The notes below the pieces were generated by a model. That model saw only the letters and a list, made by a program, of their open reading frames with translations, did not search any database and was not told where the DNA came from. Below, in pieces: positions 8,612 through 13,459 of a stretch of 37,454 bases of DNA. The DNA comes from Actinomycetota bacterium (GTDB lineage Bacteria > Actinomycetota > Acidimicrobiia > IMCC26256 > PALSA-610): contig SXHN01000030.1 in NCBI GenBank assembly GCA_005773635.1, positions 1 through 37,454 of the forward strand, read 5' to 3'. Positions within the stretch are counted from its first letter, which is position 1. Every line of letters starts with the position of its first letter. The position numbers and the translations under genes are program-made.

Positions 8612-9199
8612 ATGACAGCGCGCGTTTCGTTCATCACTGCAAACCAGGCGCCGGTGTCGGCCCGACATCTGTTTGCGGGTGGCGACCCCGGTCCGCTGGT
8701 TTCGTCGTGGGCTCAAGTGCCCGAAATGCTCGACGTGACGTTGCCGTTCGTGGGCATGATCATGGGAGCGTCGTCGGTGTCTGTGCGACATAAGGAACTT
8801 GTCATCTTGCGAACATCAGCATTGATGCAATGTCGTTTTTGTATCAATGCGCATACCGAAGTTGCCGTAGACGTCGGCCTGAATGAGCTGGAAATCCGTG
8901 CGTTGCGAGGCGAGTTGGCCGTTGGCGACGTATTCGCAATGCCATCGGAAATCGCCTTGCTGCGTTGGATCGACGCGGTTGCTACGGGGCGTGGAGCGGT
9001 CGCCGACGACATCGCAACCGCGTTCGCAGGGCATTTTCAAGACCACGAAGTAGTGGAAGTAACGATGCTCATCGGCGCAACGCTCATGCTCAACCGCTAC
9101 GCGTCTGCGCTCCAACTCCCAAACAGCGCCGAGTCGATTGATCGTCTGCAACAGGCCGGTTATGAGACCGCGCTAACCAATCAAGGGGCAATTGCATGA
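8612..9199 (+). CDS. AhpD-like / carboxymuconolactone decarboxylase-family protein
   Basis: This 195-residue all-helical protein belongs to the AhpD/CMD superfamily. The redox site reads ELVILRTSALMQCRFCINAH around residues 58-77: a CxxC with the upstream Glu and the downstream His (CRFCINAHT) of the AhpD proton relay. Members are thiol peroxidases or hydroperoxide-detoxifying partners. The C-terminal half (TMLIGATLMLNRYASALQLP) fits the second helical repeat. Its stop overlaps the start of the radical SAM gene (ATGA), so the two are very probably made together. Alone it would be called an alkylhydroperoxidase-like protein; the fixed partner suggests a role with the radical SAM enzyme. Confidence 0.85.
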   Translation: MTARVSFITANQAPVSARHLFAGGDPGPLVSSWAQVPEMLDVTLPFVGMIMGASSVSVRHKELVILRTSALMQCRFCINAHTEVAVDVGLNELEIRALRGELAVGDVFAMPSEIALLRWIDAVATGRGAVADDIATAFAGHFQDHEVVEVTMLIGATLMLNRYASALQLPNSAESIDRLQQAGYETALTNQGAIA

Positions 9200-10023
9200 A
9201 CGCCGTTCTTGACGCCATGGAGAATGGAACGATCTCGCGGCGGGTGTGGTTCTACGCGAACTACCACTGCAATTTGGAGTGTTCCTATTGCCTCACTGAG
9301 AGCTCACCGCGAGCACCGAGGCGCCAACTGGATCATTCGTTGATGAAGTCGCTGACCCGTCAAGCCGCCGACTTGGGTTTCACGGAGGTGGGAGTTACCG
9401 GCGGCGAAACGTTTCTCGACCTCGCACTGCCCGCGACCCTCGCCGAAATGTCTGAATCCGTGCCAGTGATTGTGTTGACGAACGGCACACTGTTTGCCGG
9501 TGATCGCCTTGAGCGGCTGGCTCCCATGCTCGGGCGCCAGATTTCAATGCAGATTTCGTTAGATTCCGCCAACCCCGATCTCAACGACATGGCGCGGGGT
9601 CCTGAGAACTTCGCCAAAGTTGTTGAGTCGATACCTCGACTCATCAACGCCGGCCACCGTGTGCGAATCGCCAGCACGGGCCAGGCGCCCGATGAAGAGT
9701 CGCAAGAAGCGCTGTGCACGTTGCATCGCAGCTTAGGTATCTCCGATGATGATCATGTTGTGCGCCCGATCGTTCGTCGTGGGCGCGGCGCGACCTTCGA
9801 TGGTTCAGTTCCGGCCGGCCCCGACGAATTGTTTCCGGAGCTGACGATCACCGCCGATGGGGCGTTTTGGAGCCCGTTTGCTCCGACGGTATCGAATGAT
9901 CACGTCGATACCGACCTACTTGTGAGCAGGACGGTCGAGCCGTTGTCCGTCCCCGCTCAGCGACTCGTGGCGTTGGCGCAAGGCCGTCCTGTCGGAAGCG
10001 ATGTCGCCAATAACATTCGTTGA
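9196..10023 (+). CDS. Radical SAM enzyme
   Basis: This 275-residue enzyme has the canonical cluster motif CNLECSYC (Cys25, Cys29, Cys32) and the SAM-contacting VTGGETFLD near residues 69-77. The barrel continues with IVLTNGTL and ISMQISLDSA, which match the MoaA/PqqE-type core. It lacks a cysteine-rich SPASM or twitch extension: after the first motif there is only one clear cysteine (EALCTLHRS). It probably carries only the SAM [4Fe-4S] cluster. It overlaps the AhpD-like gene by four bases. No precursor peptide gene is evident beside it. The substrate is unknown. Confidence 0.86.
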   Translation: MNAVLDAMENGTISRRVWFYANYHCNLECSYCLTESSPRAPRRQLDHSLMKSLTRQAADLGFTEVGVTGGETFLDLALPATLAEMSESVPVIVLTNGTLFAGDRLERLAPMLGRQISMQISLDSANPDLNDMARGPENFAKVVESIPRLINAGHRVRIASTGQAPDEESQEALCTLHRSLGISDDDHVVRPIVRRGRGATFDGSVPAGPDELFPELTITADGAFWSPFAPTVSNDHVDTDLLVSRTVEPLSVPAQRLVALAQGRPVGSDVANNIR

Positions 10024-10034
10024 GTGTGATCAGG

Positions 10035-10050
10035 GTGGCCGGTCGGCCAC
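10035..10050. terminator. Short GC hairpin between convergent genes
   Basis: GTGGCC-GGTC-GGCCAC forms a perfect 6-bp stem 11 nt after the radical SAM stop, between that gene and the convergent anti-sigma gene. There is no T-tract, so termination is only inferred. Confidence 0.3.
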
Positions 10051-10115
10051 ATTCCCATGAGTTGCGGGCGGTCAAGTCGCCGTTATTCGGCAACCATCAA
10101 TTTGCGCAACTGGCG

Positions 10116-10478
10116 TTATGCGACCTGGTGCAGGCTTGTGGCGAACTGTTGGAGGCGCGCGACGATTTCAGGTGAGGCTTGCGGCGCGAGTTGCGCAAGC
10201 GATGCCTTGATCGCTCGGAACGTTGCCGCATCGAGGCCGCAATCCCGGCACATCTCGAGATGCTGTTGCAGGGCGGCCAGATCGATCGCGTGATTTGGGC
10301 CAGTGAGGGCACCGTCGAGTTCGAGTTGCAACAGTCGGGCGGCCTCGCGACACTCTTGTGGGGTTCGAGCCCGGAGCCGTTTCAACATCATGATCGGAAA
10401 CCCGGTTGCGTTTGGGTCAATTCCCGGCGGCTTGCTTGCGTTGCGAAGCGACTTCTCATAGCTGCTCACGATCGGCAT
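10116..10478 (-). CDS. Zinc-finger anti-sigma factor (ZAS type)
   Basis: This is a 120-residue protein with the ZAS zinc motif: Cys in ECREAARLLQLELDGAL, then HLEMCRDCG giving HxxxCxxC. A C-terminal helix (RLQQFATSLHQVA) follows. The family binds and inhibits its cognate ECF sigma factor. In RsrA, disulfide formation among these cysteines releases zinc and the sigma; whether this one is redox-sensing is not provable here. It has no membrane segment, so it is a soluble anti-sigma like RsrA. It overlaps the sigma gene by 23 nt if ATG 10478 is used; ATG 10391 is an alternative start that still keeps the zinc motif. Confidence 0.8.
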   Translation of the reverse strand: MPIVSSYEKSLRNASKPPGIDPNATGFPIMMLKRLRARTPQECREAARLLQLELDGALTGPNHAIDLAALQQHLEMCRDCGLDAATFRAIKASLAQLAPQASPEIVARLQQFATSLHQVA

Positions 10479-11001
10479 GGATACCGCTGCGGGCCAAATG
10501 GTCGCGCATTTTGTTGCGGGCGCGGTGCAACCGCGACATGACCGTGCCCGGAGCGACTCCGAGGATCGCTGCGGCTTGTTCGCAGCTCACCCCGTGGATG
10601 TCGACGAGCTCCACCGTCGCGCGAAACGACGTCGACAAGCTGGCGAACGCGGCGCGCACTTCGCGGTCGAATGCGCCTCGGGTTGCTTCGTCTGCAGGGT
10701 CGTCAGTGTTGGCCAACGCCTGTTGCTCGGATTCGGTGCGAGTGGGGTCTTTCAGGAGCGCCGGACGACGTTTTCTTGTCCGATTGCGTTGTGCGTTGCG
10801 CAAAATGGTTAAGAGCCACGCTCTTGGGTGCTCGCCATCAAAGCCGTCCATCGCCCGATACGCGCGGAGCAGAGTGTCTTGCACGACGTCGGCTGCGTCG
10901 GCGTCCGACCTCGTGATTGATCGAGCCACTCGAAGCAGAATGTCGATCTCAGGCACGACGACGCTTTGGAACCTCGCGTCGCGAGCAGACATTTGGGGCA
11001 C
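10456..11001 (-). CDS. ECF RNA polymerase sigma factor (SigR/RpoE-like)
   Basis: This is a 181-residue ECF sigma factor. Region 2 is around ADAADVVQDTLLRAYRAMDG with HPRAWLLTILRN. Region 4 is LSTSFRATVELVDIHGVSCE followed by AILGVAPGTVMSRLHRARNK. A linker of charged residues joins them. I chose GTG 11001 because TACGGT lies exactly 6 nt upstream (11008-11013), giving a leaderless mRNA; ATG 10992 is three codons later. It is coupled to the anti-sigma gene and divergent from ccdA and the selenoprotein-like TlpA gene, which are its most obvious candidate targets. Confidence 0.86.
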   Translation of the reverse strand: MPQMSARDARFQSVVVPEIDILLRVARSITRSDADAADVVQDTLLRAYRAMDGFDGEHPRAWLLTILRNAQRNRTRKRRPALLKDPTRTESEQQALANTDDPADEATRGAFDREVRAAFASLSTSFRATVELVDIHGVSCEQAAAILGVAPGTVMSRLHRARNKMRDHLARSGIHADREQL

Positions 11002-11007
11002 AGCTAC

Positions 11008-11013
11008 ACCGTA
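11008..11013 (-). promoter_or_regulatory. Leaderless -10 box of the ECF sigma gene
   Basis: On the minus strand TACGGT-GTAGCT-GTG places the -10 box 6 nt from a GTG start. This spacing decides the start of the sigma gene as GTG 11001 rather than ATG 10992. Confidence 0.45.
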
Positions 11014-11089
11014 TCTGGCGCATGCCCAGTAATTAGCGCGCCGACCCCTGTAGGCAGCGCTTGTCAGCGGTCTCCGGGAAGCGGGCGCG

Positions 11090-11983
11090 GTGCGACGGGG
11101 TTCCCATGACGTGCTTGATGTTCCGATCGGACTCGCTGTTGGAGCGGGCATGGTTGCCAGCGTGAATCCTTGTGGGTTTGCGATGTTGCCTGCCTACGTT
11201 GGCTTCTTCGTTGGTACCGACACGGAATCGTCTCGTTCGAGTCGGGTGCGGCGCGCGTTGGTGGTGAGCGGCGCGATGACTGCGGGCTTCATTACGGTAT
11301 TCGGCACGGTTGGTTTGCTTGTGCAAACCGTGGCGAGCAGTATCGATCAGCATCTCTCGAAGGTCACGGTTGTGATTGGGGTATTGCTCGTTGTGCTCGG
11401 CATCTACCTCCTGAGTGGACGCGAGCTTCGGTTCAACGGACCCAAGATTCAAAAGGGCGGACGCGAGCGCACCATGGTTTCGATGTACCTCTTTGGCGTG
11501 TCGTACGCGACGGCCTCGTTGTCGTGCACGCTCGGGCCGTTCCTCGTGGCGCTGACGCCCACGTTTCGTGATTCGGGCGTCGTATCAGGGATGGCAGCGT
11601 TCGTGTCGTATGGCCTCGGAATGGGCATGGTCATCACGATCGTTACCGTCGCGGTGGCCTTCGCCCAACAGACATTTGTGACTCGATTGCGCCGCGTTGG
11701 GCCCTTGGTGAATCGCATCGCTGGCGCCATGCTTGTCCTAGCCGGTGCCTACGTTTCTTGGTACGGGTATTGGGAAATTAACGGCGATTTCAGGCCTGAC
11801 CCGGTGGTGGATCGAGCGTCGAAGATTCAAACCTGGCTCACGGATCAGGTTGGTTCGATCCCGAAGTGGCCGCTGGCGCTATCAGTCGCCGCTATCGTGA
11901 TCGTCATGGTCGTCCGTCAGCGGGTTCGAAAAGTTGTCGCATCCGGGAAGCCCGATGACAGTGAGCGGGTTTCGGTGCCGTGA
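11090..11983 (+). CDS. ccdA: CcdA/DsbD-type transmembrane thiol reductant transporter
   Basis: This 297-residue membrane protein has the two cysteine motifs of the CcdA/DsbD transmembrane domain, NPCGFAMLPAYVGF near residue 27 and SLSCTLGPFLVAL near residue 145, each at a helix start. About six hydrophobic helices form the core and a seventh lies near the C-terminus (LALSVAAIVIVMVV). The family moves reducing equivalents from cytoplasmic thioredoxin to extracytoplasmic thioredoxin-like proteins. Its stop overlaps the next gene (GTGA at 11980-11983), a TlpA-like lipoprotein that is the natural electron acceptor. The start is GTG 11090 or GTG 11111; no clear Shine-Dalgarno or -10 decides between them. 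Confidence 0.85.
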   Translation: MRRGSHDVLDVPIGLAVGAGMVASVNPCGFAMLPAYVGFFVGTDTESSRSSRVRRALVVSGAMTAGFITVFGTVGLLVQTVASSIDQHLSKVTVVIGVLLVVLGIYLLSGRELRFNGPKIQKGGRERTMVSMYLFGVSYATASLSCTLGPFLVALTPTFRDSGVVSGMAAFVSYGLGMGMVITIVTVAVAFAQQTFVTRLRRVGPLVNRIAGAMLVLAGAYVSWYGYWEINGDFRPDPVVDRASKIQTWLTDQVGSIPKWPLALSVAAIVIVMVVRQRVRKVVASGKPDDSERVSVP

Positions 11984-12516
11984 CGACGACGAGAAATCGA
12001 CCGGCGCGGGTCGCAGCAGCATTTCTTGCCGGCGCGGTGTTCGTTGGTGCGTGCGGGAGCTCAGCCAAGAGTGATGGCGCCAATACGAATGGTGAACCGA
12101 CGGCGACCGGCGTGTTCACGATGCCTGCCGTCGACGTGCTCGATGTCGCAACCGGCGGCAAGGTGCCATTCGCCAAGCTGAGCCCGAGCGACAAGCCACT
12201 TTTACTGTGGTTTTGGGCGCCCCACTGACCGGCGTGTAATCGGGAAGCCCCCGACGTTGAGCAGTTTGCTCAGCAGCATGCAGACATTCAGGTCGTGGGC
12301 ATCGGCACCCAGGACAGCTTCGATGAAGCGCAGCAGTTTCGAGCACGTCACAACATCACGTTCGAGTTCCTGTGGGACGAATCGTTTGATACCTGGAAGG
12401 CGTTCGGAGTTGCGGGCCAGCCTGCTGCTGTCCTGTTGTCACCTGACGGTAAGCGGCTCGGCAAATGGAGCGGCATGTTTCCCATCGATACGGTAGTTGA
12501 ACTCGCAGGCCAGTAG
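11980..12516 (+). CDS. Candidate selenoprotein: TlpA/DsbF-like thioredoxin lipoprotein with in-frame UGA in the CxxC site
   Basis: Read through the TGA at 12226-12228, this is a 178-residue protein with Sec83. The signal peptide ends in a lipobox (AVFVGAC, Cys about 25), so the domain is outside the membrane. The redox site reads WFWAPHUPACNREAP, where relatives such as mycobacterial MPT53/DsbF have WxPxCPxC. The 95 codons after the TGA stay in frame and complete the fold: IQVVGIGTQDSFDEA, FEFLWDESFDTWKAFGV and the cis-Pro loop GQPAAVLLSPDG. Neither half alone is a functional thioredoxin. A bacterial-type SECIS hairpin follows the UGA. It starts GTG-on-stop with ccdA and is followed by doxX. 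The alternative is a single nonsense mutation of a Cys codon. SelA/B/C/D are not in this window. Confidence 0.8.
12256..12274 (+). promoter_or_regulatory. Candidate bacterial SECIS hairpin
   Basis: An 8-bp stem (GTTGAGCA pairing with TGCTCAGC, one G-U pair) closes a 3-nt loop GTT at 12264-12266. The loop begins 35 nt after the UGA and starts with G then U. Known bacterial SECIS rules ask for a loop roughly 16-37 nt from the UGA with a G in its first two positions, and E. coli fdhF uses a loop GU. A second hairpin, TCGG-GAAGCCC-CCGA at 12240-12254, lies nearer the UGA and is a weaker alternative. Folding was done by eye. Confidence 0.5.
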
Positions 12517-12541
12517 TTCTAGCCACCATCCGGGAGGGCTT

Positions 12542-13459
12542 GTGACCAATTTGAAGTCGCTGGATATCAGGGCAAATGAAGTGGCCGCATGGCTAGAAGA
12601 GCATGCGATTCGATATTCGCTCGTCGCTTTGCGGATCCTGATGGGCTTGCTGTGGTTCCAAAACACTGCTTGGAAGCATCCTCCGTTCAACACCAGTTAC
12701 TCGTTTGGTAAGTACGTGAAATTCGCTGTGGATTACCCGGTGTTTTCGCCGTTCTCATGGTTTGTTGAAACCACTGTCATTCCGAATCTCACGTTGTTCG
12801 GGTACATGATCATGGTGGTTGAAGGCGCACTTGCAATTTCAATGCTCCTCGGCCTCTACACGCGCACGTTCGCGTTGGTGGGTATCTTCCAGTCGCTCTT
12901 CATCTTGTTTTCAGTCGTGCGCGGGCCCGGTGAATACGGCTGGGCGTACTGGATGATTTTGCTGATTCACGTTGCGATCTTTGCCAGTGCAGGCGGTGGG
13001 CGTTTCAGCGTCGATCATGTTGTGAATACGAGCGATTCCGAGTTGCGGCGTCGAGCCCAGATGACGCTCGGCAGCATCGTGATGTTCTTTGGGGCCATTG
13101 CGTTGTTACGCAACGGTTTCTCGTTCGCGAACGGTCCGGGCGCTCGCCTGTGGCACCAAGGTGACTACGTGCCTTGGGGTCGATTGGCCCGCCTCAACGG
13201 CCGCGGTTCGACGTTGATCATCTTGATGGGAGCGGCTGGCTTCGTAGGCGCGTACATGCGACAAAAGATTGTGGCTGGCGTTGTTGCGGCGATCGGGGCC
13301 GTGGCTGCATTCAGCATCTTGCGCGACATCAACATCCCGGACCTTTGGCTCGGCGAAGGCAATACGAGCAATGGGGTCTTGTACCTCATCGTTGCCGCTG
13401 GTTTTGCGACGCTTGCGTTCGCTGAAAAACCCTCATCAGAACTTGCTACTTCGCAGTGA
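12542..13459 (+). CDS. doxX: DoxX-family membrane protein
   Basis: This 305-residue membrane protein has the DoxX signature region SLVALRILMGLLWFQNTAWK near the N-terminus, then YMIMVVEGALAISMLLGLYT, typical of the DoxX helical bundle. It continues with several further helices and a C-terminal extension of three more (LIILMGAAGFVGAYM; AAFSILRDINIPDLWLG; YLIVAAGFATLAF). GTG 12542 is preceded by GGGAGG at 12532-12537. The gene lies 26 nt after the selenoprotein-like gene. In mycobacteria DoxX joins SodA and a thiosulfate sulfurtransferase in a membrane redox complex, so a role in extracytoplasmic thiol chemistry fits this operon. The exact reaction is unknown. Confidence 0.78.
   Translation: MTNLKSLDIRANEVAAWLEEHAIRYSLVALRILMGLLWFQNTAWKHPPFNTSYSFGKYVKFAVDYPVFSPFSWFVETTVIPNLTLFGYMIMVVEGALAISMLLGLYTRTFALVGIFQSLFILFSVVRGPGEYGWAYWMILLIHVAIFASAGGGRFSVDHVVNTSDSELRRRAQMTLGSIVMFFGAIALLRNGFSFANGPGARLWHQGDYVPWGRLARLNGRGSTLIILMGAAGFVGAYMRQKIVAGVVAAIGAVAAFSILRDINIPDLWLGEGNTSNGVLYLIVAAGFATLAFAEKPSSELATSQ

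Follow-up and report, generated by a model that had tools for sequence, protein, structure and literature searches.

Is a lipoprotein gene that is interrupted by a single TGA at its catalytic codon a broken gene, or does it encode a selenocysteine (Sec) enzyme? The question is raised by a locus on contig SXHN01000030.1 of the Actinomycetota bacterium GCA_005773635.1 (class Acidimicrobiia), of which a stretch of 37,454 nucleotides (the window) was analysed. The frame at 11980–12516 on the forward strand has a GTG start codon and a TAG stop codon and gives a protein of 178 amino acids when TGA is translated as Sec (U). A preliminary description of this DNA had proposed a frame interrupted only by a TGA at the catalytic residue (WAPH-U-PAC), and the translation bears this out: the sole in-frame TGA is codon 83 (12226–12228), and readthrough gives the motif LLLWFWAPH-U-PAC-NREAP followed by a complete C-terminal half. 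The lipobox and cis-Pro loop that had been placed on either side of the TGA were both located. A lipobox-like VGAC, with Cys25 (12052–12054, forward strand) as the predicted lipidation site, precedes the TGA, and Gln-Pro 147–148, conserved at 90% or more in the protein alignment of the homologues, follows it; Pro148 (12421–12423, forward strand) is assigned to the cis-Pro loop of the thioredoxin fold by the alignment and a structure model. Read as Sec83, as translation and homologue alignment suggest, the UGA would provide the N-terminal residue of a UxxC redox motif, with Cys86 (12235–12237, forward strand) as the resolving cysteine. The anticipated splitting of the gene by gene callers is also seen, as the ORF list has only an 82-aa stub (11980–12228) in the frame of the Sec gene and no ORF of at least 80 aa covering the downstream half in the same frame. 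That description missed a hairpin at 12240–12254, the overlap with ccdA, and a Sec paralogue at another locus of the genome.

The homologues are the first body of evidence that bears on this question. A survey of 395 genomes of the class gave more than 100 homologues with exactly one stop, a TGA, and nearly all others had none; among the homologues listed, there are either zero stops or exactly one TGA, with a single exception (G043:C79), and the pattern of random stops and frameshifts that would have pointed to a pseudogene was not seen. An alignment of 50 distinct homologues, comprising 38 Sec (TGA) and 12 Cys (TGC/TGT) forms, places the two kinds of codon in exactly one shared column, with five to seven Sec/Cys interchanges on the homologue tree, in agreement with the alternation predicted for codon 83. 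Changes in the coding region past the UGA fall mostly at third positions. The relatives found in genome contigs come mostly from Acidimicrobiales and Microthrixaceae MAGs, and the Sec form is present outside the class too (e.g. in G489, 52% identity). The paralogue with a TGA in the same genome (C20:24769–25197; L062, G000:C20, TGA at L062:8054, reverse strand) has the same two hairpins; its neighbour is not CcdA but a frame that on visual inspection resembles an NhaA antiporter. Paired Sec copies lying close together, each with its own SECIS, occur in G157 (L042/L072), G251 (L040/L071), G319 (L044), and G382 (L046), and in the G251/G319/G382 group the QP of the cis-Pro region is changed to QH in one of the two Sec copies.

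The genome also has the machinery for Sec insertion. In this draft assembly (3.56 Mb, 125 contigs, 95% complete), selA, selB, selC, and selD were all found by homology, so that the absence of selA, selB, or selC, which would have spoken against a selenoprotein, does not apply. The selA gene (463 bits) lies directly upstream of selB (335 bits, over the cut-off), the tRNA-Sec (61.5 bits, anticodon TCA) is on the contig that carries selAB, and selD scores 413 bits. The formate dehydrogenase alpha subunit of this genome (L095, G000:C115:22508–24517) has no in-frame TGA, and Sec use in the genome is thus independent of that formate dehydrogenase.

Across the class, selB is over the cut-off in 220 of the 395 genomes. 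Of the class genomes whose homologue scores at least about 78 bits, 53 of 56 with the TGA form have selB versus one of six with the Cys form only (p about 5e-5), and in the rest of the phylum it is over the cut-off in 11 of 13 TGA-form versus two of 17 Cys-form genomes (p about 1e-4); the lists behind these associations were compiled by hand from tables, and kinship among the genomes makes the p-values optimistic. No selB was found in five TGA-form genomes (G185, G378, G291, G640, and G649), two of which are about 80% and three 93–96% complete, and G291 did not yield selA either. The TGA forms in G291, G640, and G649 may reflect a selenoprotein relic, an assembly gap, or a missed gene. The Cys-form genome G087 has selA and no selB match at the threshold used.

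Downstream of the UGA lies a hairpin (hairpin II, 12256–12274, forward strand; GUUGAGCA-GUU-UGCUCAGC) in which positions 12256–12263 pair with 12267–12274 around a GUU loop at 12264–12266. The preliminary description had an 8-bp stem with a GUU loop starting 35 nt past the UGA; stem and loop are as described, but it is the loop that lies after 35 nt, the stem starting after 27 nt. With a folding energy of −10.8 kcal/mol (z = −3.6 versus dinucleotide shuffles), hairpin II alone agrees in loop, stem, distance, and energy with the published bacterial SECIS model, which has a loop of 3–9 nt with a G in the first two positions, a stem of 4–16 bp, a distance of 16–37 nt from the UGA, and a minimum free energy (MFE) of −7.5 kcal/mol or lower (PMC13188914, Fig. 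2 legend).

This fit is matched by conservation of the hairpin, with a core of GAGC-AGUUN-GCUC, in the Sec forms only. There, the stretch GAG-CAG-TTN-GCT after the UGA is nearly frozen at synonymous positions, whereas the Cys forms vary: GAGCAGTT is invariant, synonymous sites included, in 37 of the 38 Sec forms, and CAGTT at the place of hairpin II is absent in all 12 Cys forms. The one exception, L038, is compensated to GCACAGUUUGUGC, GAGC/GCUC having become GCAC/GUGC with the stem kept, and the base pair adjoining this core on its outer side is C-G in 31 sequences and U-A in seven. Covariation of the kind expected for a SECIS was found in hairpin II, with two-sided changes in three of six pairs and 97.8% of cells paired, and for the whole two-hairpin structure none of 500 shuffles was as good on four of five measures. 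Hairpin II is, by the published model, a SECIS element, and its recognition by SelB is predicted from sequence and folding.

Hairpin I (12240–12254, forward strand; 5-bp stem, loop AAGCC) precedes it. Taken as one fixed register, it is only 71% paired, and since the register shifts between clades, we relied on synonymous-codon shuffles for this hairpin. In the 38 Sec forms, the mean z was −2.2 for hairpin I, −2.9 for hairpin II, and −3.2 for both, compared to values near 0 throughout in the 12 Cys forms (0.2 for both hairpins). RNAalifold called hairpin II only. A covariance model of both hairpins gave significant scores in the genome at the Sec gene and its paralogue only, the same hairpin pair is found in G489 from another class, and no Rfam family matched 12000–12600. 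An outer stem closing both hairpins appears in the MFE structure of the window, where alone it was seen, and is not claimed here. Selection on hairpin I suggests that it is functional, and the signal for recoding appears to be a tandem of two hairpins. We give even weight to a broader proposal, namely that the signal of this clade is a tandem SECIS, in which a SelB-binding AGUU hairpin is preceded by a hairpin selected in Sec forms only that probably spaces the former from the ribosome, and that this signal marks a large undescribed actinobacterial DsbF-like clade, occurring here alongside a formate dehydrogenase that lacks Sec.

Taken together, UGA 12226 is very probably recoded as Sec in a TlpA/DsbF-like thioredoxin-fold lipoprotein, with support as strong as sequence comparison can give. 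The protein matches the Pfam families AhpC-TSA, Redoxin, and Thioredoxin over their cut-offs, and an AlphaFold2 model built from 23 sequences (pLDDT 86) has a thioredoxin fold with the redox motif at a helix start and a cis-Pro, the hallmarks of the TlpA/DsbE/DsbF-like family. None of the NCBIfam models for ResA, DsbE, MauD, and TlpA scored over its cut-off, the best being ResA with 36 bits against a cut-off of 170; we therefore use the label “DsbF-like” rather than ResA, DsbE, or TlpA. The nearest solved structures, both by sequence (E about 1e-16) and by fold (top Foldseek hits), are MPT53/Mt-DsbE (Rv2878c, 1lu4) and Mt-DsbF (Rv1677, 3ios). These actinobacterial secreted proteins share the thioredoxin fold and an active-site motif in a WFW(A/T)P context, which in the Mt pair is CxxC. 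They differ in having Cys instead of Sec as the N-terminal residue and are only about 30% identical in the structural alignment, and the SECIS within the gene and the overlap with a CcdA gene distinguish the locus described here.

The overlapping gene (11090–11983, forward strand) encodes a CcdA/DsbD-TM membrane protein, as indicated by family match and cysteine conservation, with a conserved pair in NPC (Cys28) and SLSC (Cys146), and is the likely electron partner; its stop codon and the GTG start of the Sec gene overlap by 4 nt (GTGA). Four near Sec loci (L031, L032, L033, and L035) and four Cys loci (L012, L016, L017, and L019) have CcdA next to the gene, with the Cys pair conserved in seven of these eight. 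A CcdA neighbourhood had been expected for the whole family and was not found: distant Sec loci lie elsewhere, and in the wider family only near relatives have the adjacent partner. Downstream, a Rv1678/DoxD-like membrane protein without Cys (12497–13459, forward strand; listed from TTG 12497, with GTG 12542 as another possible in-frame start; NF049986, 38.6 bits, below the cut-off of 50) is a probable member of the operon. In the region 8612–11151, an AhpD-like gene and a Rv1681-type radical SAM gene (219.6 bits, cut-off 380) overlap end to end and are followed by genes for an anti-sigma and an ECF sigma factor, which are encoded as a pair on the opposite strand with their start region towards ccdA. 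These genes and the selenoprotein may form a redox regulon.

The best explanation for the gene product is a membrane-anchored seleno-thiol:disulfide oxidoreductase that would work with CcdA. In the proposed mechanism, SelB-GTP-Sec-tRNA would bind the apical AGUU loop of hairpin II so that UGA 12226 is decoded as Sec, with hairpin I perhaps needed to set the distance. The protein would then be exported and lipidated at Cys25, and its Sec83-Cys86 pair would exchange electrons with disulfides of exported proteins, the presumed substrates. As the gene overlap and knowledge of the family suggest, CcdA would most likely re-reduce the selenoprotein with cytoplasmic electrons.

In the preliminary description, the product was a Sec-containing extracytoplasmic reductase. 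Machinery, alternation, and SECIS uphold the Sec part, whereas “reductase” is unproven, since both closest solved relatives, Mt-DsbE and Mt-DsbF, act as oxidants in vitro, folding hirudin oxidatively without reducing insulin, and Rv2874/Rv2877c has been proposed as the membrane partner in the Mt system (PMC3853704). The same selenoprotein might accordingly be an extracytoplasmic oxidase or folding catalyst like these relatives, in which case its redox state would be set by either CcdA or the DoxD-like protein. The downstream gene fits this alternative through its resemblance to Rv1678, which presumably shares its mycobacterial neighbourhood with the DsbF gene Rv1677. However, the overlapping gene encodes a CcdA/DsbD-TM protein with a Cys pair, a family known for outward electron delivery, and no VKOR or DsbB gene was seen adjoining the Sec gene. 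We consider an oxidase possible but rather unlikely and favor, with some reservation, reduction as the direction of the reaction.

The remaining alternatives concern the UGA itself. In bacteria, release factor 2 competes with Sec decoding at UGA, and both signal peptide and lipobox are on the stub; the UGA could thus mostly terminate translation, yielding an 82-aa lipoprotein with a role of its own, and be read through as Sec only when selenium is available. This dual product is improbable, as the stub lacks the resolving Cys, the cis-Pro, and half of the fold and shows no sign of conservation as a unit. That the TGA is a real stop in a pseudogene, or a miscalled TGC or TGT one base change away in a draft assembly, is rejected by a TGA shared with more than 100 homologues of other genomes and with the paralogue of the source genome, by purifying selection past the TGA, and by a SECIS conserved in TGA forms only, next to the full Sec machinery. 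An in-frame TGA in an otherwise open frame could also arise if UGA were reassigned genome-wide or read as another residue, but the TGA forms align with Cys, tRNA-Sec (TCA), SelA, and SelB are present, and general reassignment is rejected by the overlapping ccdA itself, which ends in TGA (11981–11983).

TlpA-like UxxC selenoproteins as such are already known, having been predicted in Sargasso Sea data (PMC1088965) and listed, along with a UxxC redoxin family, in a 2026 inventory (PMC13188914). The Sargasso Sea thiol-disulfide isomerase-like selenoprotein (cd02966 TlpA-like; PMC1088965, Table 1 of PMC13188914) is likewise a metagenome prediction with a TlpA-like fold, UxxC, and a bacterial SECIS; it was defined on four marine sequences and is compared here with the actinobacterial clade by description only. 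The redoxin family selenoprotein (PF08534, HEU0032618.1; PMC13188914) has UxxC in a redoxin fold, and the Sec protein of the window also matches PF08534; compared by description only, it may or may not belong to this clade. Two further TGA frames in the genome bear the motifs of the UGC-containing TlpA and Prx-like UxxC selenoproteins (PMC13188914) and differ from the Sec gene in motif spacing (UGC) or context (HFGULHC). One is a thioredoxin-fold frame with one in-frame TGA in SSWUGC (L104, G000:C45:32792–33124, reverse strand), like the listed UGC-containing TlpA selenoproteins, and the other is Prx-like, its single in-frame TGA lying in LRHFGULHC (L106, G000:C4:13699–13989, forward strand); a CGCAGUUGCG-type stem-loop follows in the DNA, its loop letters resembling AGUU as in the SECIS of the window. 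In the available literature, we found no description of the actinobacterial DsbF-like clade, its size, its ccdA link, or the tandem hairpins, and none pairing Rv1677, Rv1678, or Rv1681 with selenoproteins; NCBIfam has no model fitting the Sec clade, and neither actinobacteria nor TlpA are mentioned in the deep-Sep paper. The tandem hairpin could be the feature that makes this gene a variant.

Readthrough of the UGA is almost certain, and the gene is part of a large actinobacterial set of Sec enzymes, little described so far, that are cut in two by gene callers. Judged by selB, Sec use is widespread in the class, yet annotation of the corresponding selenoproteins is sparse, and automatic gene calling would reduce the gene to a stub plus an orphan fragment in many such genomes. 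Within the set, nature provides Sec/Cys swaps both with and without a SECIS, which could help to show why bacteria bear the cost of selenium in extracytoplasmic proteins and how SelB copes with a variety of hairpin layouts.
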